DNA of 48,723 nt, taken from contig JASMFB010000004.1 of the NCBI GenBank assembly GCA_030751995.1, positions 1-48,723 on the forward strand. The letters run 5' to 3'. The stretch is from Candidatus Thalassarchaeaceae archaeon. Its GTDB lineage: Archaea; Thermoplasmatota; Poseidoniia; Poseidoniales; Thalassarchaeaceae. Shown here one piece after another: positions 18,146-30,417 of this stretch. Made by a program: the position numbers and the translations under genes. Position 1 is the first letter of the stretch. Each line of letters begins with the position of its first letter. Under the pieces are notes generated by a model. It ran no database searches and was not told the DNA's origin. It saw nothing but the letters and a program-made list of their open reading frames with translations.

Positions 18146-19402
18146 ATGCAAGAGGGTGACTTGATTTACGATTGGAACATCGTCGATTATGAATTCAAGC
18201 GAGATGCCTCAAATCATCCGCATGGAATTTGGTTCGATGATGAGACATTACGAGATGGCCTTCAGAGTCCAAGTGCCCGTAATCCAACGATTGAAGAGAA
18301 GATTGAGTTGTTGTCCTATATGGAACGACTTGGTGTTCAGAAAGTGGATCTCGGCCTCCCAGGTGCAGGCCCATTTCATGTCAACCACATCGATGCCATG
18401 CTGTCTCATATCGTGGATAACGACTACAGCATTCGTCCCGGTTGCGCTGTTCGAACGGTTGTTTCAGACATCGAACCATTGGTTGATTTGCAGGCCAAAC
18501 ACGAGATGAAGATTCAGGCAAGCGCCTTCCTCGGCACCAGCCCCATACGACAATTCGCAGAGAATTGGACGATGGAAAGAATTCTCAGTACTGCTGAGAA
18601 AGCCGTTACTTTCGCGGTGGACAATGGAATTCCTGTGATGTTCGTCACAGAAGACACGACTCGCTCCAAACCCGAAGAAATCAAGGAAGTATACACTCGG
18701 GCAATAGAGCTGGGCGCGGACCGGATTTGTGTCTGTGATACCTGCGGTCACGTTACGCCCAACGGCGTCAAACAATTGCTCACATATATCCAAGATGAGG
18801 TCATTCCCGACGCGGGCGTCAAACGTCGAGATATCGAAGTCAATTGGCACGGTCACCAAGACCGTGGTCTAGGGGTTGCAAACAATCTGGCTGCCGCAGA
18901 GGCCGGTGCGGATGTCATTCATGGCACTGCACTGGGTGTGGGTGAGCGAGCCGGTAACGCACCACTGGACCAGACACTGGTTAACCTGAGTCTAATGGGC
19001 GTCATCGAGAATGATCTGACCTTACTCAACGAATACATGCAGAAGGCACATGATTACGTCGAGGTTGCCTTGCCACGCAATTATCCCGTGTTCGGGGAAG
19101 ATGCCTTCGAAACGGGCACTGGTGTTCACGCAAGTGCCGTAATCAAGGCCATGAAAAAGGGCGATCATTGGCTTGCCGACCGCGTATATTCGGGCGTTCC
19201 GGCTCAAGATTATGGTCTTCAACAAGTCATTCGAATCGGACACATGAGTGGTCGTTCAAACATCGTCTGGTGGCTTGAGCAACATGGCCATGAAGTGACC
19301 GACGAAATCGTGGCTCATTTGTTCGAGATCGCCAAGGGACAACGTCGTTTGATGCCTGATTCCGAGGTTGAAGCGGCTGTGCAAGAATTCCTTTCTGATT
19401 GA
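18146..19402 (+). CDS. isopropylmalate/homocitrate synthase-family enzyme
   Basis: From the ATG at 18146 the protein has 418 residues; a GTG at 18116 would start inside the hairpin arm and is disfavoured. It is a DRE-TIM (HMGL-like) acyltransferase: DDETLRDGLQSPSARNPTIE carries the catalytic R and metal-binding D, EVNWHGHQDRGLG provides the HxH metal ligands, and GTALGVGERAGNAPLDQTL is the conserved substrate loop. Such enzymes condense acetyl-CoA with a 2-oxoacid, giving 2-isopropylmalate, homocitrate or citramalate. The C-terminal part (NYPVFGEDAFETGTGVHASA onward) matches the linker region, but the allosteric LeuA dimer domain is missing, so feedback inhibition of the usual kind is not expected. 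The substrate cannot be decided from sequence alone; no leu genes flank it. Confidence 0.8.
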   Translation: MQEGDLIYDWNIVDYEFKRDASNHPHGIWFDDETLRDGLQSPSARNPTIEEKIELLSYMERLGVQKVDLGLPGAGPFHVNHIDAMLSHIVDNDYSIRPGCAVRTVVSDIEPLVDLQAKHEMKIQASAFLGTSPIRQFAENWTMERILSTAEKAVTFAVDNGIPVMFVTEDTTRSKPEEIKEVYTRAIELGADRICVCDTCGHVTPNGVKQLLTYIQDEVIPDAGVKRRDIEVNWHGHQDRGLGVANNLAAAEAGADVIHGTALGVGERAGNAPLDQTLVNLSLMGVIENDLTLLNEYMQKAHDYVEVALPRNYPVFGEDAFETGTGVHASAVIKAMKKGDHWLADRVYSGVPAQDYGLQQVIRIGHMSGRSNIVWWLEQHGHEVTDEIVAHLFEIAKGQRRLMPDSEVEAAVQEFLSD

Positions 19403-19432
19403 GCGTCTCATCCATGGTTTCAATAACGAACT

Positions 19433-19451
19433 CATGGCCCTACGGGCCATG
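19433..19451 (+). promoter_or_regulatory. hairpin containing the subtilase start codon
   Basis: CATGGCCC (19433-19440) pairs perfectly with GGGCCATG (19444-19451) around TAC. The final ATG of the right arm (19449-19451) is the start codon that directly precedes the signal peptide of the subtilase, so folding would bury the start. Confidence 0.6.
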
Positions 19452-22400
19452 AAGTGGATTGGAATCACCTTGTTGTTGGTTTTCTCAAGCCTTTCTCCAA
19501 TCGCTTCAGCAGCCGATATTTTTGAGGAAACGGACCATCTTTCAGAGTATTCCAAATCTGTTCAATTAGCGTTTGCCCGGTGCGCAGAATTACCTGCTCA
19601 CGATGGTACTTGGTTGGTGGTCAGTACATTTCCTCTGGGCGAAGAAGCCCCGTATATCCCCCATGCATGGTTGGTCGATGCATCGCCGGCTGAAATCAGT
19701 CTGTGGATGGATTCCAATCGTATCGAGATTGCCTGTCCCGATGTAGAACGCCAACAGGAACTCCGTTGGACACCAAACGACCCAAAATTCAGCGATCAAT
19801 GGCACCTCCAAAACACCGGGCAGACGAGTGGTGGCCTTTCTGGTGAAGATGCGAATCTAACGGGTGCATGGCAATCCTATCAGGGAACAGGTGTGATGAT
19901 TGGGATTGTCGACGATGGGTTGGACCACGAGCATCCTGACCTGATGACCAATTATGACACCACAAATGATTACGATTTCTGTGGAAACGATGGAAACCCC
20001 TCTCCCTCAAATTGGGATGCGCATGGCACGGCTGCGGCGGGCGTTGCTGCAGCGACCGGCGACAACAACGTCGGCGTGTCCGGAGCCGCCCCTGATGCCA
20101 ATCTCATTGGATTGGAACTAATCTCTTGTAACTCAGGCGACTCAAAACAGGCCGATGCACTTGGCCATGAAAATCAGATTATCGACATTTACAGCAATTC
20201 ATGGGGGCCATCAGACGATGGAAGTACACTGGAGGCACCCGGTCCTTTGACCATTGCCGCATTCGAAGATGATGTGGCAAACGGCCGAGGGGGTCTAGGC
20301 AACATCATCACATGGGCTGCTGGTAATGGATTGGATGACGATGATGATTCCAACAAGGATGGCTACGCCAATGCACGCCAAACCATCGCAGTGACCGCCA
20401 TCACGCATCAGGGCGACCAGTCATGGTATGCAGAACCAGGTGCCAACATCTTGGTTGCAGCACACAGTGATGGCAGTGGCGAAGGCATCACTACGACCGA
20501 TATCGAGGGTTCATCTGGATATACTAACAATGACTACACCGACAATTTCGGCGGCACCTCATCAGCCACCCCTCTGGCAAGTGGTGTCATCGCTTTGATT
20601 CTCGAGGCCAATGCCAATCTGACTTGGCGTGACGTGCAACATGTTCTGGTTCATAGTTCTCGACAGAACGATGCCAGTGACAGTTCATGGAACGTCAATG
20701 GTGCCGGCCATGACGTCTCGCACAAGTATGGATTCGGAGCCGTAGATGCCGGCCGAGCGGTCGCCGTCGCAGAGAATTGGACAAATGTTGACCCGGCAAT
20801 AAATATCACCAGCAATACACGCACAATCAATACTGCAATTCCGGACAATACCCCTCAAGGATTGAACGATACAGTGGCCATCAACGATGGACTACGAGTG
20901 GAACACGTCGAAGTCATCGTCGACATTGATCATGTCTATCGGGGCGACCTGATTATCACTCTCACTTCCCCGTCGGGGACCGAGAGCACACTTGCGCAGA
21001 AACAGAGTGATGCCAATAACAACTACCACAATTGGATGTTCTCTACCGTCCACAATTGGGATGAGCCTTCTGAAGGTAACTGGACCTTGTCCGTGGAAGA
21101 TGATGGCAATGGGGATACTGGAACCTGGAATGATTGGGAACTCATCATCCATGGCGTCCCCATGGTTCTCGATTCAGATGGAGATGGGTTGACCAACGAT
21201 AATGAGACAGACGTTCATGGCACAGATCCCTATGACGCTGACACAGATGATGATGATTTGACTGATTACGAAGAGATCATGGTAACCAACACCGACCCTC
21301 TAGAGGAGGATAGCGACAATGATACGTTGCTGGATGGTGCCGAAGTCAATTTGTATGGAACTAATCCACTGTCTAACGACACAGATGGAGATGGTCTGAC
21401 CGATGCGCAAGAAATCCTTTTCTTCGGCAGTGACCCCTTGACATTCGACGCCGACACCGATGCAGATGCTTGGTATTGGTTCCAAGATTGCAATGATACA
21501 AATCCACTGATTCACCCGGGGATGTCTGAACTGCTCAATGGAATCGACGACAATTGCAATGACAATTGGGATGAAGGATTCAATGTCTCGGATTCAGACA
21601 ACGATGACCTAGCTGATTATCCAGAATACCATGTATTTGGGACCAATTGGACTAATCCTGATACTGACGGTGATAATCTGACCGACGGAGATGAGATTCT
21701 CATTCACGGCACCAACCCGCTGGTTCCAGACCCCGATGCGGATGCTGACGGCTGGTATTGGTTCCAAGATTGTAACGAGTCAAATCCTTTGATTAATCCA
21801 GCTATGCCCGAGGTACTGGATGGGATTGACAACGATTGCGACGATGAGATTGACGAGGATTATGCCGGCATAGATTCTGATTTGGATGGATTACTCGATT
21901 TGAACGAATACAATATCTATCTTACCGATCCGTTTGACAATGATACTGATGATGATGGTCTCGATGATGGCATTGAACTCAATGTGACATTCACCAATCC
22001 GTTGGTGCCAGACCCCGATTCTGATGGCGATGGCTTCAGATGGTTTGTCGATTGTGATGACAATGATTCAGCCATTCATCCAAACGCGACTGAGATGTGG
22101 GATGGACTGGATCAGAATTGCAATGACCTCATCGATGAGATGGTTAATCGAGCAGGCCAAATCTCCGTCCTTCCAGCAGAATCGGAGTTGGAGTTGAACG
22201 CGACCTCCGACCCATTGTTCCTACAGAGTTTTGTGAATATTTCAACAGATTCCATCCTCGACATAGAAACGAGTTGGTTCATTGAGGACAGTCAACAAGG
22301 CACGCGCTGGGTAATTACGAACGAATCATGGATGTCGTTGGGGCCATTCAATTGCAAGGGTGCCGTCTCTGACTTCGTTGCAGAGATATGTGTACAGAAC

Positions 22401-22754
22401 GGCACAACAGAGACCTATTCTGTCACCGTTTCCATATCAGACGGTTACGAGATTATCACCAACACGTGGTCGGTCACTTACACCGTATGGCATGAACCTG
22501 AACTTGAACCAGAACCTGAACCAGAGCCTGAGGTGATTCCAGACACACCCTCTGAATCAACAGACGATGGGAATTCGACGACAAGCGGCGGATTTGCCAT
22601 CGATGTCAATACGCGCGTAATTCTAGGTCTGATTGCAATCGTTGTTCTTCTCGGCATCATTGTGTTATTCACTGGACGAAGGAAAATTCCTCCGCCCCCG
22701 GTTCGCACGCCACCATCAAATCTTCCTCAGATGGTAGGTCAGAGATTCCGATGA
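19449..22754 (+). CDS. membrane-anchored subtilisin-like protease with calcium modules
   Basis: About 1101 residues from the ATG at 19449; the frame stays open to 19368 but only this start puts the signal peptide (MKWIGITLLLVFSSLSPIAS) at the N-terminus. The S8 peptidase triad is D155 (IGIVDDGLDHEHPD), H192 (DAHGTAAAG) and S371 (GGTSSATPLASG). A proprotein-convertase P domain (about 480-580) follows, then DxDxDG-rich calcium repeats alternating with three 30-residue MopE-like metal-binding motifs, a further beta domain, a PEPEPE linker, one transmembrane helix (VILGLIAIVVLLGIIVLF) and a short basic tail. It is a cell-surface protease that probably feeds on environmental protein. The stop codon directly abuts that of the convergent thiolase. 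Confidence 0.92.
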   Translation: MKWIGITLLLVFSSLSPIASAADIFEETDHLSEYSKSVQLAFARCAELPAHDGTWLVVSTFPLGEEAPYIPHAWLVDASPAEISLWMDSNRIEIACPDVERQQELRWTPNDPKFSDQWHLQNTGQTSGGLSGEDANLTGAWQSYQGTGVMIGIVDDGLDHEHPDLMTNYDTTNDYDFCGNDGNPSPSNWDAHGTAAAGVAAATGDNNVGVSGAAPDANLIGLELISCNSGDSKQADALGHENQIIDIYSNSWGPSDDGSTLEAPGPLTIAAFEDDVANGRGGLGNIITWAAGNGLDDDDDSNKDGYANARQTIAVTAITHQGDQSWYAEPGANILVAAHSDGSGEGITTTDIEGSSGYTNNDYTDNFGGTSSATPLASGVIALILEANANLTWRDVQHVLVHSSRQNDASDSSWNVNGAGHDVSHKYGFGAVDAGRAVAVAENWTNVDPAINITSNTRTINTAIPDNTPQGLNDTVAINDGLRVEHVEVIVDIDHVYRGDLIITLTSPSGTESTLAQKQSDANNNYHNWMFSTVHNWDEPSEGNWTLSVEDDGNGDTGTWNDWELIIHGVPMVLDSDGDGLTNDNETDVHGTDPYDADTDDDDLTDYEEIMVTNTDPLEEDSDNDTLLDGAEVNLYGTNPLSNDTDGDGLTDAQEILFFGSDPLTFDADTDADAWYWFQDCNDTNPLIHPGMSELLNGIDDNCNDNWDEGFNVSDSDNDDLADYPEYHVFGTNWTNPDTDGDNLTDGDEILIHGTNPLVPDPDADADGWYWFQDCNESNPLINPAMPEVLDGIDNDCDDEIDEDYAGIDSDLDGLLDLNEYNIYLTDPFDNDTDDDGLDDGIELNVTFTNPLVPDPDSDGDGFRWFVDCDDNDSAIHPNATEMWDGLDQNCNDLIDEMVNRAGQISVLPAESELELNATSDPLFLQSFVNISTDSILDIETSWFIEDSQQGTRWVITNESWMSLGPFNCKGAVSDFVAEICVQNGTTETYSVTVSISDGYEIITNTWSVTYTVWHEPELEPEPEPEPEVIPDTPSESTDDGNSTTSGGFAIDVNTRVILGLIAIVVLLGIIVLFTGRRKIPPPPVRTPPSNLPQMVGQRFR
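21486..22139 (+). repeat. three MopE-type metal-binding motifs in the subtilase
   Basis: Three 30-residue copies at 21486-21575, 21768-21857 and 22050-22139 share the pattern DC[ND]..[NP]..I[HN]P...E...GID.[ND]C[ND]D..DE (third copy GLDQNCNDLIDE). Between them lie EF-hand-like DxDxDGLxD calcium repeats. The spacing of 282 bases between copy starts is constant, showing a repeated unit of about 94 residues. Confidence 0.85.
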
Positions 22755-23894
22755 TTAAACATCAACAAGCATGGCGACCGCATTACCTCCACCCAGACAG
22801 AGTGTGACAATTCCCTTGCCACCCCCCGAGCGACGAAGTGCATTGATGAGTGCCATTAGACAGCGAGCCCCCGTTGCACCCAGTGGGTGACCGATAGCAA
22901 CAGCCCCCCCATGGGGGTTGAGTTTCTCAGCAGGGATGTCACACTCCTTTGCAATGGCACATGAAGCGGCTGCAAAAGCCTCGTTGTGTTCGACATAAGC
23001 CAAATCATCCATTGTCAATCCATTTCGCTCAAGCAATAATCCAATCGCAGGAATCGGCGCCGCCATTACTCTGGCTGGCTCGACTCCCGAGGTACAGTAA
23101 TCGAGAACTGTTGCCAGTACCGGCCAACCATTTGCATCGGCAGCATCCCGACTGGCGACTAAAACAGCAGCAGCTCCATCAGAGAGTTGCGATGAATTAC
23201 CTGCTGTGATTTGTCCACCCTCGGTGAAAGCGGCCTGCAATTCGCTGAGATCTTCCCCTGGACGAATGCCTTCATCGCGTTCGATTCCAGATGTCTCAAC
23301 AACTTCGAAATCCATCCAGCCTTGGTTCCATGCAGCATCCGCCAACTCATGAGAGCGGGCGGCAAAGACATCTGCACTTTCTCTAGAAATGCCACATTCT
23401 TCGGCAATCGCTTCACCCGTATTGCCCATGTGCTCATCGTTGTAGACGTCCCAAAGGCCGTCGTGAACCATAGTAGGCCTCATCTCTCCGAATTCTGTTC
23501 TAGAGATTTTCCGGCCGAAATAAGGTGCATTACTCATTGATTCCATTCCACCGGCTACAATCACGCTGTATTCACCAGCGCGAATGCTGTTAGCAGCCAT
23601 CATGACCGCTTTCAATGCAGATCCGCAGACCTTGTTGACTGTGGTCGCAGGAGTACTGACTGGCATACCTGCGCCCAGTGCGACCTGTCTCGCAGGCGCT
23701 TGACCCGCACCGGTTTGCAACACTTGCCCGAACAGTACTTCATCGATGATTCCACTGGCTGGGTCAATCTCGGCACGCGCAAGCAAACCTTTGACCACAT
23801 GAATTCCCAATTCAACCGCTGAGCGGTCGGCTAAGGAACCACGATAGCGCCCGACAGGAGTACGTGCAACAGCACAGATGACAACCCCTGGCAT
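22755..23894 (-). CDS. acetyl-CoA acetyltransferase (thiolase)
   Basis: The 379-residue enzyme is a full-length thiolase. The nucleophile C90 is in VNKVCGSALKAV, the second-site H336 in AIGHPLGATGAR, and C366 in TLCLGGGNA. It has the NPHGGAVAIGHPLG and NEAFAA motifs of bacterial-type biosynthetic/degradative thiolases (PhaA/FadA-like), unlike the archaeal mevalonate-pathway thiolase that usually sits beside a DUF35 gene. It condenses two acetyl-CoA or cleaves acetoacetyl-CoA/3-oxoacyl-CoA; direction is not shown. It starts 15 bases after the tryptophan dioxygenase stop on the same strand, so the two are probably co-transcribed, suggesting amino-acid or fatty-acid catabolism. Confidence 0.92.
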   Translation of the reverse strand: MPGVVICAVARTPVGRYRGSLADRSAVELGIHVVKGLLARAEIDPASGIIDEVLFGQVLQTGAGQAPARQVALGAGMPVSTPATTVNKVCGSALKAVMMAANSIRAGEYSVIVAGGMESMSNAPYFGRKISRTEFGEMRPTMVHDGLWDVYNDEHMGNTGEAIAEECGISRESADVFAARSHELADAAWNQGWMDFEVVETSGIERDEGIRPGEDLSELQAAFTEGGQITAGNSSQLSDGAAAVLVASRDAADANGWPVLATVLDYCTSGVEPARVMAAPIPAIGLLLERNGLTMDDLAYVEHNEAFAAASCAIAKECDIPAEKLNPHGGAVAIGHPLGATGARCLMALINALRRSGGGKGIVTLCLGGGNAVAMLVDV

Positions 23895-23909: not shown

Positions 23910-25022
23910 TCAATTCGTCCCTTCACCGGCGAATCCATACATTTCGCCATTTTGCAACGCCGGACGTAATTCTGGCTTGAGTAGAATCGTTCGTACCCCC
24001 CAGAGGTCGCCAAAGATTCGGTACTTGGTGGTCGCATCGAGGTAATCGACTCCAGAAGAGCCCCCTGTACCCACACGCCGACCGATGATTCGCTCGACCA
24101 TACGCGCATGATACGTGCGGAATAGGACCATGCTTTCTTCCAGTTCGACCACGGCATCAATCAAAACGCGAGGCCAAGCGAGTAAGGGTAACTCTCGATA
24201 CGATTCTATGAACAACAATCCCGCGCGTGCGCGATTGACTTCTCCATCGGGTTTGAGGAAATCCCGTGCCCCTTGGCTGGCGGCCTCAAAACGTGCTTTC
24301 ACCGCCTCGATATTGTCTACACCTTGCGCCTCCATGCGTGCACTGGCTGCTTCGCCAATGCTACTGTAAGCCAACAGATGTGCATCCACATAATCTTGCA
24401 CCGCCTCAGAATCACCTTCTGAGCCGTAGAATGATCCCATGATTGGTGTTCTTGACAACCAAGTCGTCAGGGCGGAAACCAATGTAGTATCTTCAAGTGC
24501 GCTTTCCAATCTTGACAATGCTGCTGCATCAGCCTCACTTCGTGAAGCAAGTTTTCGGAAGTGTGCGAGAGGATCCATCTCTGAAACCCGGCCCACGTGT
24601 TCTAGGCCAAGCAAAATTTCCATTTCCCTCATCTGATACGATTCAAATCCACTCGCCGTACCAAGTTCATCCCTGAATGCTAGGAAGCCCTGTGGAGTTA
24701 GCGTCTCCATGACTTTCCATTGATTGGCGAGCAATCGGAAGATCTCCGTCACCCGCCCAAGATGTTCTACCGCTTTGGGCACCAATGCTTCGGGAACGTG
24801 CTCCGTCGCTAGGATATCGCGAATCTCTTTCAGTTCGCGAATCACTTGCTTGAACCAGAGCTCAAAGGTTTGGTGAGTCACGATGAAGTGCATTTCATCG
24901 TTGCTGACACCCTCGTCATCACGTTGTAGAGACAATAGTTCATGCAGGCCTAGATAGCCTCCATATGTTCGGTTTGAGCCCCTTGCGCCGCCCGAATCTC
25001 CTTCGCCCATGTTGTTCCGCAT
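23910..25022 (-). CDS. kynA: tryptophan 2,3-dioxygenase
   Basis: A heme enzyme that opens the indole ring of tryptophan with O2 to N-formylkynurenine, the first step of the kynurenine pathway. From the ATG at 25020-25022 it has 370 residues (a GTG at 25055 and an ATG at 25010 are alternatives). The N-terminal YGGYLGLHELLSLQ and the HFIVTHQTFELWFKQVIRE segment, with the active-site histidine and substrate residues, are diagnostic. So are GFESYQMREMEILLG and the C-terminal TGGSSGVDYLDATTKYRIFG. No kynureninase or formamidase is in the window. It lies between an RluA-type gene and a thiolase on the same strand, and one copy of a 42-bp direct repeat forms its leader. Oxygen use agrees with the heme A genes. 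Confidence 0.95.
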   Translation of the reverse strand: MRNNMGEGDSGGARGSNRTYGGYLGLHELLSLQRDDEGVSNDEMHFIVTHQTFELWFKQVIRELKEIRDILATEHVPEALVPKAVEHLGRVTEIFRLLANQWKVMETLTPQGFLAFRDELGTASGFESYQMREMEILLGLEHVGRVSEMDPLAHFRKLASRSEADAAALSRLESALEDTTLVSALTTWLSRTPIMGSFYGSEGDSEAVQDYVDAHLLAYSSIGEAASARMEAQGVDNIEAVKARFEAASQGARDFLKPDGEVNRARAGLLFIESYRELPLLAWPRVLIDAVVELEESMVLFRTYHARMVERIIGRRVGTGGSSGVDYLDATTKYRIFGDLWGVRTILLKPELRPALQNGEMYGFAGEGTN

Positions 25023-25026
25023 CGCC

Positions 25027-25068
25027 TTGATGCTTGAATGCCTTGCCCCACTCACCGTTCAGGTTTCA
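25027..25068. repeat. direct repeat, copy A (tryptophan dioxygenase leader)
   Basis: Shares about 34 of 42 aligned bases with copy B at 25999-26039; common blocks are CTTGAATG, CTTGCCCC, ACCGTT and AGGTTTCA. It includes the stop codon of the RluA gene and the leader of the dioxygenase gene. Confidence 0.8.
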
Positions 25069-25955
25069 AAATCGATTTTGACTCGATTTGCGAAGGGAAC
25101 ATTCGATTCATATAACACAAATTCATCTGTTTCAGGGTGCAAAAAACCAAGCGCAGTTGCATGCAAACAGATTCGTTTGAGAGGGTTTGTTGTAGCCCCG
25201 TGTACAATGTCACCGACAATCGGACAACCCTGGAGTTGCATCGCCATTCGAATTTGATGCCGACGACCGGTATCGATTTTGATCTCTATCAAAGATACAA
25301 ATTCATCCTGATCTTCGGTTTTCCAATGTGTGATAGATTGTTTCGACCCTTTGAACGTTGATTTGACACGTTTAACATGCAGATGTTTGTCTTCCACGAG
25401 CCAAGATGAATCTGTTCCTTCGGAATCTTTTGGACCCCCTTCCACAAGGGCATGGTACAGTCTTTCTACATCCCGTTGAGCGAATTGTGCTTGCAAGAAT
25501 TCTTTGATTTCTCGATTTTTTGCAAATACCATGACACCAGATGTATCGCGGTCTAATCGGTGCACAATATGACTCCATGCGCGTTCCGATTGGCGCTTCA
25601 CGTGATCCACACAACGACTGTGCAACGTATCTTTCTCGAGTTTGTCTGTGGCGACAGAAAGCAGGCCGGCCGGTTTTTCAACAACTAAAATATAATCATC
25701 CTCAAATAGAATTTTCAATTTTGAAAATTGTTTTTTCGGTTCAGGTGGAGGGGATTTCTTCATCGCATCCGAGCGATTGATAATCACAATAGTGTCACCC
25801 TTAACGAGCAATTCTTTGGCCTTGTAAACAGGTATTCCATTGATCAATACTCTACCTTCAGTCAGCATTTTTCGCAATTTGGACTTTGTCGATTCGGAAA
25901 ACATCAATGCCAATGTAGGGAGTAGAATACTCTCTTCTTCAACATTGAATTCCAT
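25059..25955 (-). CDS. RluA-family RNA pseudouridine synthase
   Basis: The 298-residue protein isomerises uridine to pseudouridine in RNA. The N-terminus has an S4-like RNA-binding segment (SKLRKMLTEGRVLINGIPVY), and the catalytic domain has the RluA motif HRLDRDTSGVMVFAKN, in which the second D is the nucleophile. GRRHQIRMAMQLQGCPIVGD is the second conserved block. The ATG at 25953-25955 follows the ribosome site AGGGGTG (25961-25967). RluA enzymes are mainly bacterial and eukaryotic; the gene also looks richer in A+T than its neighbours and is flanked by about 42-bp direct repeats, so lateral acquisition is plausible. The target RNA (rRNA or tRNA) is unknown. Confidence 0.88.
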   Translation of the reverse strand: MEFNVEEESILLPTLALMFSESTKSKLRKMLTEGRVLINGIPVYKAKELLVKGDTIVIINRSDAMKKSPPPEPKKQFSKLKILFEDDYILVVEKPAGLLSVATDKLEKDTLHSRCVDHVKRQSERAWSHIVHRLDRDTSGVMVFAKNREIKEFLQAQFAQRDVERLYHALVEGGPKDSEGTDSSWLVEDKHLHVKRVKSTFKGSKQSITHWKTEDQDEFVSLIEIKIDTGRRHQIRMAMQLQGCPIVGDIVHGATTNPLKRICLHATALGFLHPETDEFVLYESNVPFANRVKIDFET

Positions 25956-25960
25956 ATCGG

Positions 25961-25967
25961 CACCCCT
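25961..25967 (-). promoter_or_regulatory. Shine-Dalgarno site of the RluA-type gene
   Basis: AGGGGTG on the minus strand, five bases before the ATG at 25955, decides the start against the longer GTG-initiated frame that would run through the repeat. Confidence 0.65.
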
Positions 25968-25998
25968 AAGCAAATCTTTGCTCAATCGACGCACTGGA

Positions 25999-26039
25999 TT
26001 GACACTTGAATGTCTTGCCCCCTCCACCGTTAGGTTTCA
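25999..26039. repeat. direct repeat, copy B (RluA gene leader)
   Basis: Second copy of the element at 25027-25068, 972 bases away in the same orientation, standing 44 bases upstream of the RluA start codon. A local hairpin CCCCCT (26018-26023) / AGGGGG (26041-26046) overlaps this copy only. Confidence 0.8.
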
Positions 26040-26057
26040 CAGGGGGTTTTGACAATC

Positions 26058-26351
26058 TCAAACGTGCTCATTCCAGAAGTCCCAGTCGTATTGGTCCACA
26101 CCACAGTTCATTTCGTTGTTCTCGTTTTCCCACTCTCGAATTTCTTTTCTCAGAAGGTCTTCCGCATTGTCAAATTCCAATCTTGTAATCCAAAGCCCCA
26201 TCAGTTTCATTGCTCGACTTCTGAGCGCACTCTTCTGTCCGTGCAGTTCATCCTCAAGTGTTGGTATCCAAAGTTGTATTAGTTGCATGACCATTTTCTG
26301 AATTTCTCTTGCTTGCTTCGTGTTTTCATTGTTCTCTTTTTTGATATCCAT
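26058..26351 (-). CDS. small hypothetical protein, helical
   Basis: A 97-residue frame with a clear ATG at 26349-26351. The protein is highly charged, predicted helical (KQAREIQKMVMQLIQLWIPT, then SRAMKLMGLWITRLEFDNAE) with a tryptophan-rich, acidic C-terminus ending DQYDWDFWNEHV. No family is recognised. The DNA is richer in A+T than the surrounding genes, like the RluA-type gene next to it. A small hairpin AGCG-TAAG-CGCT (26354-26365) stands two bases before the ATG. It could be a real accessory gene or a non-coding remnant; composition of the protein favours a gene slightly. Confidence 0.5.
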   Translation of the reverse strand: MDIKKENNENTKQAREIQKMVMQLIQLWIPTLEDELHGQKSALRSRAMKLMGLWITRLEFDNAEDLLRKEIREWENENNEMNCGVDQYDWDFWNEHV

Positions 26352-26531
26352 CTAGCGCTTACGCTCCTGTGACCAATTTGGTGCAGATCAGGTTCGCTAA
26401 GACAACAGAATCACGAGGTATTGGGTTGTATCTCCCCATATATTAACAATGTGATTTTCTGCACACATTCTCCTTAACAAATTTCTGTAATTTCCGCAAC
26501 CGATAATTACCCGACACCGGAGCCGTCCCTA
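26352..26531. promoter_or_regulatory. A+T-rich divergent intergenic region
   Basis: A 180-base gap between the small minus-strand ORF and purP. TATA-like stretches are CATATATTAAC at 26437-26447 and GATAATTAC at 26502-26510; the second is 22-30 bases upstream of the purP ATG, which would suit a leaderless or short-leader transcript. ACCAATTTGGT at 26371-26381 is a small palindrome. No gene is seen. Confidence 0.35.
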
Positions 26532-27644
26532 ATGGCGACCCCTCACTCGCACCTGCCAGATTGGCTTGCGAAGTACAATCCTGCCGAGATTACGATTGGC
26601 GTCATAGCCTCGCACTCATCTCTTCAGATACTTCATGGGGCCCGCCAAGAGGGCTTTCGAACCCTTGGAATATGCGTGGGGGAAGGCCGCAAGAAGTTGT
26701 ACAAGGCATTCCCGGGGGCAGAACCGGATGAATGGATGATGTTGGACAACTATCTCGAACTTCTAGACAAAGCCGAAGAGTTGCGCAGTCGCAATGTCAT
26801 CATCATCCCACACGGTTCGTTGGTCGAGTATCTAAGTCCCGATAATTTCATCAAACTCGAAGTACCCACTTTTGGCAACCGTCGAATCCTGAAATGGGAG
26901 GGCAGCCGAGAGTTGCAACGCCAATGGTTGGAGTCCGGCGGTTGCACCATGCCAAGAGTGATTGAAGACCCTCACGAAATTGATGGGCCAGTGATCGTGA
27001 AATATGCAGGTGCCAAAGGAGGTCGTGGTTATTTCATTGCACGAAACTTCCGTGACTTCCGACGCAATGTCGATTTGGAAGAGGATTTCACAATTCAAGA
27101 ATACGTTCTCGGCACTCGTTATTACTTCCAATTCTTCTTCGATCCAACAGCAGATGACGGCTATCAGGTCGAAGGCATGGGCAGCCGAGAGGGACAGAAC
27201 TGTGGGCGCCTTGAACTGATGAGCATCGACCGTCGTGACGAGTCTAACGTGGACGAGTTCTACAAATTGGGAAGCCTGCGTGACCTTCGTGATATGGGTC
27301 TAGAACCCTCATTCGTAGTCACTGGAAACACCCCTGCCGTGCTTCGCGAGTCCTTGCTTCCAGAGGCCTTCCGATTAGGAGAGGGTGCGGTCGCAGCTTC
27401 ACTTGAATTGGAAGAAGATGCCCGTGGAATGATTGGCCCCTTCTGCCTAGAGACAATTGTCACCGACAAATTGGAGTTCCGTGTCTTCGAGGTCAGTGCC
27501 CGGATTGTAGCTGGATCCAATGTGGCGATTGGTGGCTCACCTTATTCGGACATCAACGAACCTGGCCTATCTACTGGTCAGAGGGTCGCACGCTGCATTC
27601 GCAAGGCTATTGACAGAAATCTCCTCAATGATATTCTCTCCTGA
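26532..27644 (+). CDS. purP: formate-dependent AICAR formyl ligase PurP
   Basis: PurP is the archaeal ATP-grasp ligase that makes FAICAR from AICAR, formate and ATP in de novo purine synthesis. The 370-residue length matches the family. Seen motifs: the N-terminal ITIGVIASHSSLQILHGARQEGF, the region IIPHGSLVEYL, the ATP-grasp loop VIVKYAGAKGGRGYFIA, EYVLGTRYYFQFFFDP and the C-terminal metal/substrate block FRVFEVSARIVAGSNV followed by GGSPYSDINEPG. The ATG at 26532 follows GGAG-containing sequence. It stands alone on the plus strand, and it is one of the clear archaeal markers of the window. Confidence 0.95.
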   Translation: MATPHSHLPDWLAKYNPAEITIGVIASHSSLQILHGARQEGFRTLGICVGEGRKKLYKAFPGAEPDEWMMLDNYLELLDKAEELRSRNVIIIPHGSLVEYLSPDNFIKLEVPTFGNRRILKWEGSRELQRQWLESGGCTMPRVIEDPHEIDGPVIVKYAGAKGGRGYFIARNFRDFRRNVDLEEDFTIQEYVLGTRYYFQFFFDPTADDGYQVEGMGSREGQNCGRLELMSIDRRDESNVDEFYKLGSLRDLRDMGLEPSFVVTGNTPAVLRESLLPEAFRLGEGAVAASLELEEDARGMIGPFCLETIVTDKLEFRVFEVSARIVAGSNVAIGGSPYSDINEPGLSTGQRVARCIRKAIDRNLLNDILS

Positions 27645-27702: not shown

Positions 27703-30417
27703 ATGCGCGCACGTACGCTCACACTTCTACTGACTCTCATGTTAGTGGCAGTTCCATGGACGGGCCTACAAGATTCGCCCGCCTTTCCCCATGACCGAAC
27801 CATTAGGGAATCGGTTGCAAATGATGTCCCTGAATCATCCAACTACACCACTGTGTACCAGTTGAACATCCCGGCTGATGGTAAGTTCAACAATGACGAA
27901 ATCCCCTATTCAATAGATGATAGTTCGACCATAGACTTCTCTTTCGATCGAATTGCCTATCATCTGGAACTACAGAAACCGGATGAAGATCGAATCTGGG
28001 TATTCGTTTCTTTCCCAAGCATCACCATGCATGCAGATGAACTGGGAATCCCAACCTTTGCCTCAGGGGTCGAATTCAAGGAATTGCTCACCGATGTATA
28101 TGTAGAATCTAATCATCCCAATCTCACAGGTTTGGGGAATTTTGATACAGGTGTGATTGAATTCTGGGGTACGAATTATGCTGCGGGCAATGGCAACGCT
28201 GTACCCAATGCCGATGGATCATTGTATGATTTTGGCGATGCTCAAAGTGCTGTTGATACTGCAGGTTATGGGAGTATGCAAATTCATGATTATGAGTCTG
28301 GTGAGACCCTGTTTTCATACAGTGCTTGGGGCTACGCTAGTGGAGGTTCAGGTGATGACCTAGGGATTGGCAACAATCCCGATTCAGAGGGCAATCCCGA
28401 CTGGACATTTTCTCAAAATTGCGGGGATTATGAAATCAAAACACTGACTGTGATGGTTCATCCGGGACCCACTCCAATAGGCCTCATGGTCGACTTAGAA
28501 TCTCCAGATTCCCATCAAATCGTCCAGAGGAACGAATACAGTATGGGCACTTTCCCAGTACGTGGTTCTACGGAATATTCCGTTGATTTAATCGAAGGCA
28601 GATACACTTCTTTGGATAATGGAACTCCATCAGATTGGAACGACGTCGCAGTCCCCATCAGCTCAAACTTCTACGGTACCCTAGACGTTCCAACAGGATG
28701 GCATCGCCTTGAATTCCGTTTCATGAATGATGGGCAACAGATTGACATTCTCACCGTTGAGCCCGTCGGTGTTGGGGAGGTCTTCATCGTTTCAGGCCAA
28801 TCAAATTCAGCAAATCATGGCGATTATCCCTTGACTCCTGTCGACCCACGTGTCAGCACTTGGGGGCCGAGTGGTTGGCGCTTTGGACAAGATCCGCAAC
28901 CCGCTGCAACCGGCACTGGGGGCTCCCCTTGGCCGGCACTAGGAGATTTACTCGCCAACCGATATGATGCCCCTATTGGATTCCTTTCAGTAGGATACGG
29001 TGGAACCAAAGTTGACCGTTGGGTACCTGCCGGAAACGATCTCTTTCCACGCATTGCCGATGCTCTCGATGCTGTAGAGCCGAGTGGCGCACGTGCCATC
29101 CTTTGGCATCAGGGCGAGAGCAATGCTGGGGGGACGACTACAGAGGATTATGCTGAGATGCTGGGCGAAGTAGTCCTTGGAAGCCGCGCTCATGCTGGTT
29201 ACGACATCGCTTGGGTTGTAGCCCGGGTTGGGTTTGTCCCCAATGGTGACCCAGTCAAGATGAGTTGGGTTGTCGGTGGACAGAATGCTGTAATCGATGC
29301 GGACCCAATGACGTTTGCCGGCCCACATACCGATGACCTCAACGGCACAGATTGGCGGTACGATACAATTCACTTCAACGAGGCCGGTTTGCGTGAGCAT
29401 GCGGCAAGATGGGACACTCGGATTGCAACGGCCATGAATGAGTTACTGCACCTGATTTTTGATACGGATGGCGATGGCGTTTACGATGATGATGACCTTT
29501 GTCAAGGAACACCCCTGGATGTTGATATTTTCACTGACGGATGTAGTGAGGAACAGAGAGAGTCGGGTAGTACGACAGATTCTGACAATGATGGTATCAT
29601 GGACAATTCCGATTACTGTCCCGATACGCCAGCAGGAGAATCCGTATACACCGATGGTTGCAGCGACAGTCAGCGCGATGCGGATGGGGACGGAGTCTCT
29701 GATGCCGACGATCTCTGCCCAGGATTCGATGACACCATAGATGCAGATGCAGATGGGATTCCAGATGGTTGTGACGACCTCATCGATACTGACGGCGATG
29801 GTGCCTCTGACAGTGAGGACCGGTGCCCTGGTCATGATGACACCATAGATGCAGATGCAGATGGCTATCCTGATGCTTGCGATATCCTCATTGACAGTGA
29901 TTACGACGACGTCGCTGACTCTGATGACAAATGCCCTGGTTCTGATGACGCCATCGACGTGGATGCCGATGGAATTGTCGACGGTTGCGATTCACTGATT
30001 GATTCAGATGGAGATGGACGAGCCGACTTCGCCGATGCCTGTCATGGCCACGATGACTCCATCGATGAAGACATGGACAACATCCCAGATGGGTGTGATT
30101 CATTCATCGGCCAAGAAACTGAATCCCAGACTGATTCAGTCCTCATGCAAGGAGGGCTAGCACTTGCTGCAGTCATGTTGGTTGCACTCTTGACAATTCT
30201 TTTGATTACCATAACTGGCAAGGAGAAGTCTCCTCAGATGAATTCCCCTGCAATTCCTGATGAGGCCGTGTTTGATTTTGTCACAGGTCCAGATTCAAAC
30301 CTAGATGGTGTATGGAATGAGGGCGAGGAATGGTTGGAACAACCCGAAGGAAGTGGAACTTGGTACAAGCGAAATCAGGAAACCCGATTGTGGATTCTGC
30401 ACGAGTCCGACGAGTAA
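27703..30417 (+). CDS. secreted SGNH (sialate O-acetylesterase-like) esterase with calcium repeats
   Basis: The 904-residue protein has a signal peptide (TLTLLLTLMLVAVPW). An N-terminal beta-rich region of about 350 residues precedes an SGNH/SASA esterase domain: S367 in VSGQSNS, the glycine block LSVGYGGTKVD, the WHQGESNA block, and D554/H557 in DTIHFNEAGLREHA. Five or more thrombospondin type 3 calcium repeats follow (DxDxDGxxDxxDxCPG, about 585-800), with two nearly identical DNA stretches at about 29729-29757 and 29837-29865. One transmembrane helix (LALAAVMLVALLTILLIT) and an aromatic-rich cytoplasmic tail (NLDGVWNEGEEWLEQPEGSG) end it. Likely role: removing acetyl esters from extracellular polysaccharides or glycans; substrate unknown. 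Confidence 0.85.
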   Translation: MRARTLTLLLTLMLVAVPWTGLQDSPAFPHDRTIRESVANDVPESSNYTTVYQLNIPADGKFNNDEIPYSIDDSSTIDFSFDRIAYHLELQKPDEDRIWVFVSFPSITMHADELGIPTFASGVEFKELLTDVYVESNHPNLTGLGNFDTGVIEFWGTNYAAGNGNAVPNADGSLYDFGDAQSAVDTAGYGSMQIHDYESGETLFSYSAWGYASGGSGDDLGIGNNPDSEGNPDWTFSQNCGDYEIKTLTVMVHPGPTPIGLMVDLESPDSHQIVQRNEYSMGTFPVRGSTEYSVDLIEGRYTSLDNGTPSDWNDVAVPISSNFYGTLDVPTGWHRLEFRFMNDGQQIDILTVEPVGVGEVFIVSGQSNSANHGDYPLTPVDPRVSTWGPSGWRFGQDPQPAATGTGGSPWPALGDLLANRYDAPIGFLSVGYGGTKVDRWVPAGNDLFPRIADALDAVEPSGARAILWHQGESNAGGTTTEDYAEMLGEVVLGSRAHAGYDIAWVVARVGFVPNGDPVKMSWVVGGQNAVIDADPMTFAGPHTDDLNGTDWRYDTIHFNEAGLREHAARWDTRIATAMNELLHLIFDTDGDGVYDDDDLCQGTPLDVDIFTDGCSEEQRESGSTTDSDNDGIMDNSDYCPDTPAGESVYTDGCSDSQRDADGDGVSDADDLCPGFDDTIDADADGIPDGCDDLIDTDGDGASDSEDRCPGHDDTIDADADGYPDACDILIDSDYDDVADSDDKCPGSDDAIDVDADGIVDGCDSLIDSDGDGRADFADACHGHDDSIDEDMDNIPDGCDSFIGQETESQTDSVLMQGGLALAAVMLVALLTILLITITGKEKSPQMNSPAIPDEAVFDFVTGPDSNLDGVWNEGEEWLEQPEGSGTWYKRNQETRLWILHESDE

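Follow-up and report, generated by a model that had tools for sequence, protein, structure and literature searches.

Phage 'morons' and comparable insertions consist of one accessory gene with its own start signal, placed between two conserved genes, and they are sporadic among relatives and deviate in base composition. Gene cassettes of integrons are repeat-bounded gene units with variable order and precise loss; integrons of archaea are the subject of PMC9668308. Target-site duplication, by transposons or by elements that integrate at tRNA genes, leaves locus-specific direct repeats around the inserted DNA. The locus described here resembles each of these systems, and in one of the two genera concerned the insert lies beside a tRNA gene. 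It is located in a window of 48,723 nucleotides, the whole stretch of DNA analyzed, which is contig C119 of an archaeal metagenome-assembled genome (MAG; coded G000, 1,647,337 bases, 71% complete) of a Marine Group II archaeon, Ca. Thalassarchaeaceae, of the genus coded g1. We consider it probable that in this genus the gene rluA was inserted between duplicated promoters, was deleted again in a relative through the resulting repeats, and later moved to a second genus, g9. It is a basic question of horizontal transfer how an arriving gene comes by a working promoter while its neighbour stays intact, and one that is hard to address in uncultured archaea. At this site natural relatives display the states before, after and reversed, and the gene is traceable to the second genus, where a different promoter region is duplicated.

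Table 1. Features of the variable site and its borders, in window coordinates
Feature	Coordinates	Strand	Basis and reading
Thiolase	22755..23894	-	Pfam; right-hand TDO neighbour, conserved border
TDO, tryptophan 2,3-dioxygenase	23910..25010	-	Pfam PF03301; owner of the putative duplicated promoter
R2, right repeat	25018..25082	-	Alignments and likeness to g3 TDO promoters; read as native TDO promoter
rluA, predicted RluA-family pseudouridine synthase, 298 aa from ATG	25059..25955	-	Pfam, TIGR00005, protein alignment
R1, left repeat	25990..26053	-	Alignments; read as secondary TDO-promoter copy, now before rluA
ORF97, 97 aa, accessory, no family	26058..26351	-	In 8/17 g1 genomes, always at the PurP-TDO locus
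PurP-like gene (DUF1246/DUF1297)	26532..27644	+	Pfam domains; divergently oriented, borders the variable site on the left

The predicted product of rluA exhibited S4-like and PseudoU_synth_2 domains in Pfam, with 109.6 bits against PF00849 (cut-off 26.8), an S4 match of 22.3 bits that was marginally below its cut-off of 22.8, and 205 bits against TIGR00005 of NCBIfam (cut-off 192.7). HRLDRDTSG or HRLDRETSG was present in all 11 aligned RluA proteins, in agreement with the HRLD..TSG signature of the family with its catalytic Asp. The DUF1246/DUF1297 gene on the other side of the site is presumably the one named PurP. An initial sequence-only reading of the window had described rluA as richer in A+T than its neighbours, which agrees with a G+C content of 42.2% compared to 51.9% for TDO, 53.4% for thiolase and 51.8% for PurP; ORF97, upstream of rluA, is likewise low in G+C (41.8%). 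The same reading had assigned the gene to a mostly bacterial family. A recent bacterial source was not supported: none of the best 80 relatives in GTDB r220 genomes was bacterial and all were titled Marine Group II, Poseidoniales, Euryarchaeota or Thermoplasmatota archaea, in a search that reaches close relatives first. A viral source was rejected, as the viral contigs contained no rluA relative. The nearest relatives beyond g1 and g9 were Poseidoniaceae pseudouridine synthases of the same RluA family (~47-66% identity), which at the tested loci had no convincing flanking repeat, unlike rluA of g1 and g9. A second rluA in the G000 assembly (82%) was located on a 4.1-kb contig (G000:C14; L072, 1-4112) that is 99.6% identical across 2.7 kb to the g9 genome G098 (L076) and, judging by this match, has probably strayed into the bin. 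With rluA single-copy at the locus itself, the earlier suggestion of amplification was not borne out.

Among 148 genomes of the family, TDO was detected in 131, ORF97 in 10 and MEH, a 127-aa small membrane protein with a weak match to DUF4345 (E 0.018, below cut-off), in 32. MEH was spread over nine of the 11 genera at varied loci (L100-L119), often with a similar leader (ATCATGAAGGGCC.., ~30 nt before the ATG), as if it carried its own promoter along. The site is flanked by two large proteins that look secreted and contain numerous D-rich repeats of calcium-binding-like type (window 19368-22754 and 27703-30417), and a similar D-rich-repeat protein borders the g9 insertion site.

The direct repeats around rluA had been noticed as 42-bp copies sharing about 34 of 42 positions. 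They are real and extend further: gapped local alignment on the minus strand paired R1 with R2 at 25990-26053 / 25018-25082 over ~65 bp with a score of 33, compared to a maximum of 14 in shuffles (n=20) and at most 15 among 750 control pairs from the same window at a spacing of 970 bases. Over the segments first noticed (25027-25068 vs 25999-26039), 37 of 43 gapped columns were identical. An ungapped comparison (25018-25059 / 25990-26031, 76% identical) placed the copies at an offset of 972 bases, the length of the one-gene unit proposed earlier; the insert is rluA alone, and its stop codon (25059-25061) falls within R2. A 27-base motif of the repeat occurred only twice in the 1,647,337-base assembly with up to three mismatches permitted, and on this genome-wide count a general promoter motif or a dispersed repeat family was rejected. 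The 17-base core, with two mismatches, exhibited single matches in 54 of 118 family genomes, and pairs of it spaced ~970 or 1385 bp were confined to genus g1 in this set. At the 28 core-match loci outside g1, tblastn detected rluA, TDO, MEH, ORF97 or PurP in none and a distant thiolase in two. Neither a known RNA family (an Rfam scan of 24500-26700 returned three matches, all below gathering scores) nor a coding peptide 'GARHSS' (frame interrupted in relatives) was accepted as an account of the repeat, and the GTG-started frames 'MEGARHSS..' (rluA) and 'MSGARHSS..' (TDO) within it are probably non-coding. A stop was present in frame upstream of the rluA ATG in four of the eight g1 relatives with the same rluA type (G013, G024, G119 and G082), and the likely starts are the ATG at 25955 for rluA and the ATG at 25010 for TDO.

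Their position and conservation indicate that R1 and R2 are probably two copies of one putative promoter. TATA boxes of leaderless archaeal genes lie ~25-32 nt upstream of the start in the BRE/TATA layout, and the distance from the end of the box CATTCAAG to the ATG is 22 nt for TDO (box at -30) and 24 nt for MEH (-32). In front of rluA the box stands 49 nt ahead of the ATG at 25955, a distance that allows a short leader, with AGGGGTG before the start. At 83 other gene starts, drawn from the window and from 15 other contigs of this genome, the box-like pattern SRTTBA was observed 13 times at -34..-27, whereas 500 shuffled sets averaged 1.8 and never exceeded 7, an enrichment that is somewhat optimistic because the patterns were picked after the start listing had been viewed. 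The TDO upstream region of a further genus, g3, in which rluA is absent there, contains GAACTGTGGCTAGGGTAACGATTCAAGCGT at almost the same distance from the ATG. When R2 of three g1 genomes was aligned with three g3 TDO promoters, the score was reached by 0-1 of 1000 shuffles; for R1 it was reached by 3-12 of 1000 in G000 and by 103-531 of 1000 in G082, the most divergent genome, whose R1 has only ~35 bp in common with R2. Alignments of R2 with the TDO promoters of g11, g9 and g6 were weak or non-significant, so the ancestry of R2 can be traced against g3 only. In g2 and g4, PurP adjoins TDO without an insert in all ten genomes examined (three g2, seven g4), with 83-151 nt from the PurP start to the TDO match. 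Based on the likeness to g3, the near-universal presence of TDO and the insert-free g2 and g4 loci, we read R2 as the native TDO promoter and R1 as its copy.

The site is variable within g1. Searches of 17 g1 genomes, all of them incomplete MAGs, identified 12 with TDO and nine with rluA of the window's type, and the repeat stands before TDO in all 12. Read from the PurP side towards TDO, the order is ORF97-R-rluA-R-TDO in G000, G002 and G024, R-rluA-R-TDO in G013 and G082, ORF97-R-MEH-rluA-R-TDO in G033, G053 and G073, and ORF97-R-rluA-R-MEH-R-TDO in G119. One repeat and no rluA were observed in G043 (ORF97-R-TDO) and G118 (R-TDO), and G092 has MEH-R-TDO at a contig edge; the contigs of G053 and G092 end before PurP. 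The gap between PurP and TDO thus contains neither gene, rluA, MEH, or both in either order. The whole assemblies of G043, G118 and G092, with completeness of 81%, 63% and 73%, gave no match to rluA. MEH in G033, G053 and G073 is present without a third repeat. The g1 copies of MEH exhibit the TDO promoter upstream of CATTCAAG and sequence resembling MEH leaders elsewhere (e.g. TGCCG) downstream of it, which indicates that the duplication here would have covered no more of the TDO promoter than its upstream half and fits a join at the box itself. A TDO match was absent in five of the 17 genomes (G063, G101, G114, G120 and G121), possibly through loss in a sub-lineage or incompleteness. The rluA listing of G063 is a 37% fragment and was excluded from the nine carriers. 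This genome also has an extra tyrosine-recombinase-like gene (G063:C71:11063-11989), the best match to the integron-integrase profile (69.6 bits, cut-off 265), within some hundred bases of a fragment with weak likeness to rluA.

A trace of recombination between the repeats was observed in G043, which a tree of TDO, thiolase and PurP places as sister to the rluA carriers G000, G002 and G024 in a 100/100 clade. At 28 diagnostic columns these three carriers agree within R1 and within R2 and differ between the two. The sole repeat of G043 is R1-like at eight of the ten columns left of a switch point in GGGCAAG, both exceptions being indel columns, and R2-like at all 18 columns to its right. Such a chimera is as a crossover between R1 and R2 would leave it, and we regard it as the signature of an rluA deletion through recombination of the two copies. 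In G119, R1 and R2 both contain GGCTGAG, which is absent from every other listed copy and suggests gene conversion between them. The sequence-only reading had offered insertion of the gene at a repeat and a shared promoter element as alternatives, and had proposed searching relatives for an allele with one repeat and no RluA gene. Such alleles exist in G043 and G118, the repeat of G043 being chimeric, and each repeat copy is followed by a gene on its own strand, with the box at promoter position and, for R2, a likeness to the g3 TDO promoter; both proposals therefore appear to apply, and together.

Three g9 genomes (G009, G070 and G098) have an rluA that is 81-83% identical to the g1 type, compared to ~30-47% identity, or no rluA, in the remaining genera of the family. 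In a tree of 47 proteins, comprising 11 from g1 and g9, 18 distant family members and 18 Poseidoniaceae-like ones (18 of 19 chosen loci, one having been dropped by the length/stop filter), the g9 rluA is nested within that of g1 in a 95/94 clade with G033, G013, G000 and G002. The repeat around it is a different one. In G009 and G070, rluA is bracketed by CTAGTGAATRCTAAAGCC-type repeats of ~40-45 bp, with scores of 27 and 25 compared to at most 13-14 in 20 shuffles; the repeat occurs in exactly two copies in each genome, 962-963 bp apart, and its exact form in none of the other 11 g9 genomes. The right copy in G009 stops ~8 nt before a tRNA-Ala(CGC) gene, and G098 has rluA at this locus, where repeat and tRNA are missing. 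No g9 genome with tRNA-Ala(CGC), a single repeat and no rluA was found, and inspection by eye of L126-L129 identified no g9 repeat before the tRNA-Ala(CGC) of other genera. The 3' end of the g9 rluA matches the start of R2 of g1 (score 16, reached by 0 of 300 shuffles in each of G009 and G070), and the TDO promoters of other genera match it weakly or not at all. This specificity points to kinship of the g1 and g9 units, and by itself does not give the direction of transfer. The tRNA-Ala(CGC) genes (L074:2498-2574 and L075:1360-1436) are sporadic, with their nearest matches (88-94%) in g2, g3 and g6; other g9 tRNA-Ala matches are at ~77-84%, and the three that were read have the anticodon GGC. 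The tRNA may itself be an accessory, transferred gene.

The alleles of g1, together with the same gene between copies of a different promoter in g9, suggest that incoming genes are integrated together with a second copy of the start signal found at the site. In the sequence of events that we consider probable, R2 would be the old TDO promoter and rluA would have entered the PurP-TDO gap with a copy of this promoter in front of it, TDO retaining its own so that both genes stay expressed. The pair R1/R2 would then be a substrate for homologous recombination, leading to precise deletion of the gene as in G043 and to homogenization of the copies as in G119, and further insertions at the TDO promoter (MEH) and recombination would rearrange the site. 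Later the rluA unit would have moved to g9, its 3' end probably still carrying several bases of the g1 repeat, and settled before tRNA-Ala(CGC), between two copies of the promoter region of that tRNA. The duplication at insertion would most likely arise when the incoming DNA pairs with the promoter on one side and is joined illegitimately on the other, without an integrase.

An order in which a chance tandem duplication of the promoter came first, and rluA was inserted between the copies later by general recombination, seems unlikely to us. Short tandem duplications are generally common, and selection would retain an insertion that leaves a promoter to both genes; this order, however, requires the same coincidence at unrelated promoters of two genera, and in part once more for MEH in G119, and two adjacent promoter copies without an insert were found in neither of the two empty g1 alleles and in none of the ten g2/g4 loci. 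Somewhat less likely is convergence, in which rluA and TDO are under a common regulator and the gene was gained and lost by general recombination. The core with the highest conservation, GGGGCAAGRCATTCAAG, might act as an operator, and the 27-mer in G000 stands only before rluA and TDO, but a similarity of 65 bp exceeds a usual operator and includes the end of the rluA coding frame, the g9 element is different and precedes a tRNA, and the chimera in G043 speaks for recombination of R1 with R2. A cassette system, integron-like or borne by an integrase, with the repeats as its attachment sites would fit gene units between repeats, the orders rluA-MEH and MEH-rluA and the precise loss, but is highly improbable, since none of the 17 g1 genomes, all incomplete, had an integron integrase (TIGR02249) above cut-off, sub-threshold tyrosine-recombinase-like matches were also present in 14 of 14 control genomes, the full element in G000 is confined to the PurP-TDO locus, the g9 copy of this rluA type has a different repeat, and the repeats fall at promoter positions.

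The insertion of rluA with a promoter duplicate, which we prefer, could be one product of a wider process in Marine Group II, a promoter-directed uptake of single genes in which a promoter of 40-65 bp is duplicated at joining, the newcomer is expressed immediately and the resident is not silenced. rluA at TDO in g1, MEH at TDO in G119 and rluA at tRNA-Ala(CGC) in g9 would then be three products of it; we regard this generalization as doubtful. If it is general, flanking promoter duplicates could reveal recent arrivals of single genes, dated by the divergence of the copies. Flanking repeats at p <= 0.01 were observed at none of 18 distant rluA loci of the family and, away from the g1 site, at none of the 19 MEH loci suited to the test (a further one, L110, is at a contig edge). 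These repeat-free loci reject a rule by which every accessory gene has flanking repeats, and the route is thus not that by which every accessory gene arrived. In a wider test of the flanks of 80 rluA loci, 11 of them from g1 or g9, six of the 69 others reached p <= 0.01, and all six were rejected as repeats: the scores at L181, L197 and L225 were not above the highest shuffle, L214 and L228 had low scores (9 and 7) on a collapsed background, and at L233 a contig start was aligned to itself. The same test was negative at L160, L161 and L163 of g1, where MEH lies between repeat and rluA, and at L159 of g9. Among 880 intergenic pairs from 259 loci, only the g1 repeat and one apparently coding match scored at least 20, which is weak evidence because the ORF caller had swallowed the repeats of several loci. 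A limited search of part of the literature, to which we attach little weight, identified no paper that describes duplicated promoters flanking archaeal genes acquired by transfer.

Compared with the systems outlined at the beginning, the putative start signal of rluA copies the promoter of the downstream gene and forms a direct repeat with it, and the site is on an archaeal chromosome, in contrast to a phage moron. Unlike for integron cassettes, no integrase above cut-off was identified in the 17 genomes, the site is not genome-wide, and the repeat is located at a promoter and varies by locus. The insert consists of rluA alone, with no transposase, integrase or other recombinase gene within it and no long inverted repeat bounding it. 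In contrast to target-site duplication by transposons or at tRNA genes, the repeat measures 40-65 bp and is located upstream of the tRNA rather than in its 3' half; as in such duplication, it differs with the site of insertion, being the putative TDO promoter in g1 and the region upstream of tRNA-Ala in g9.
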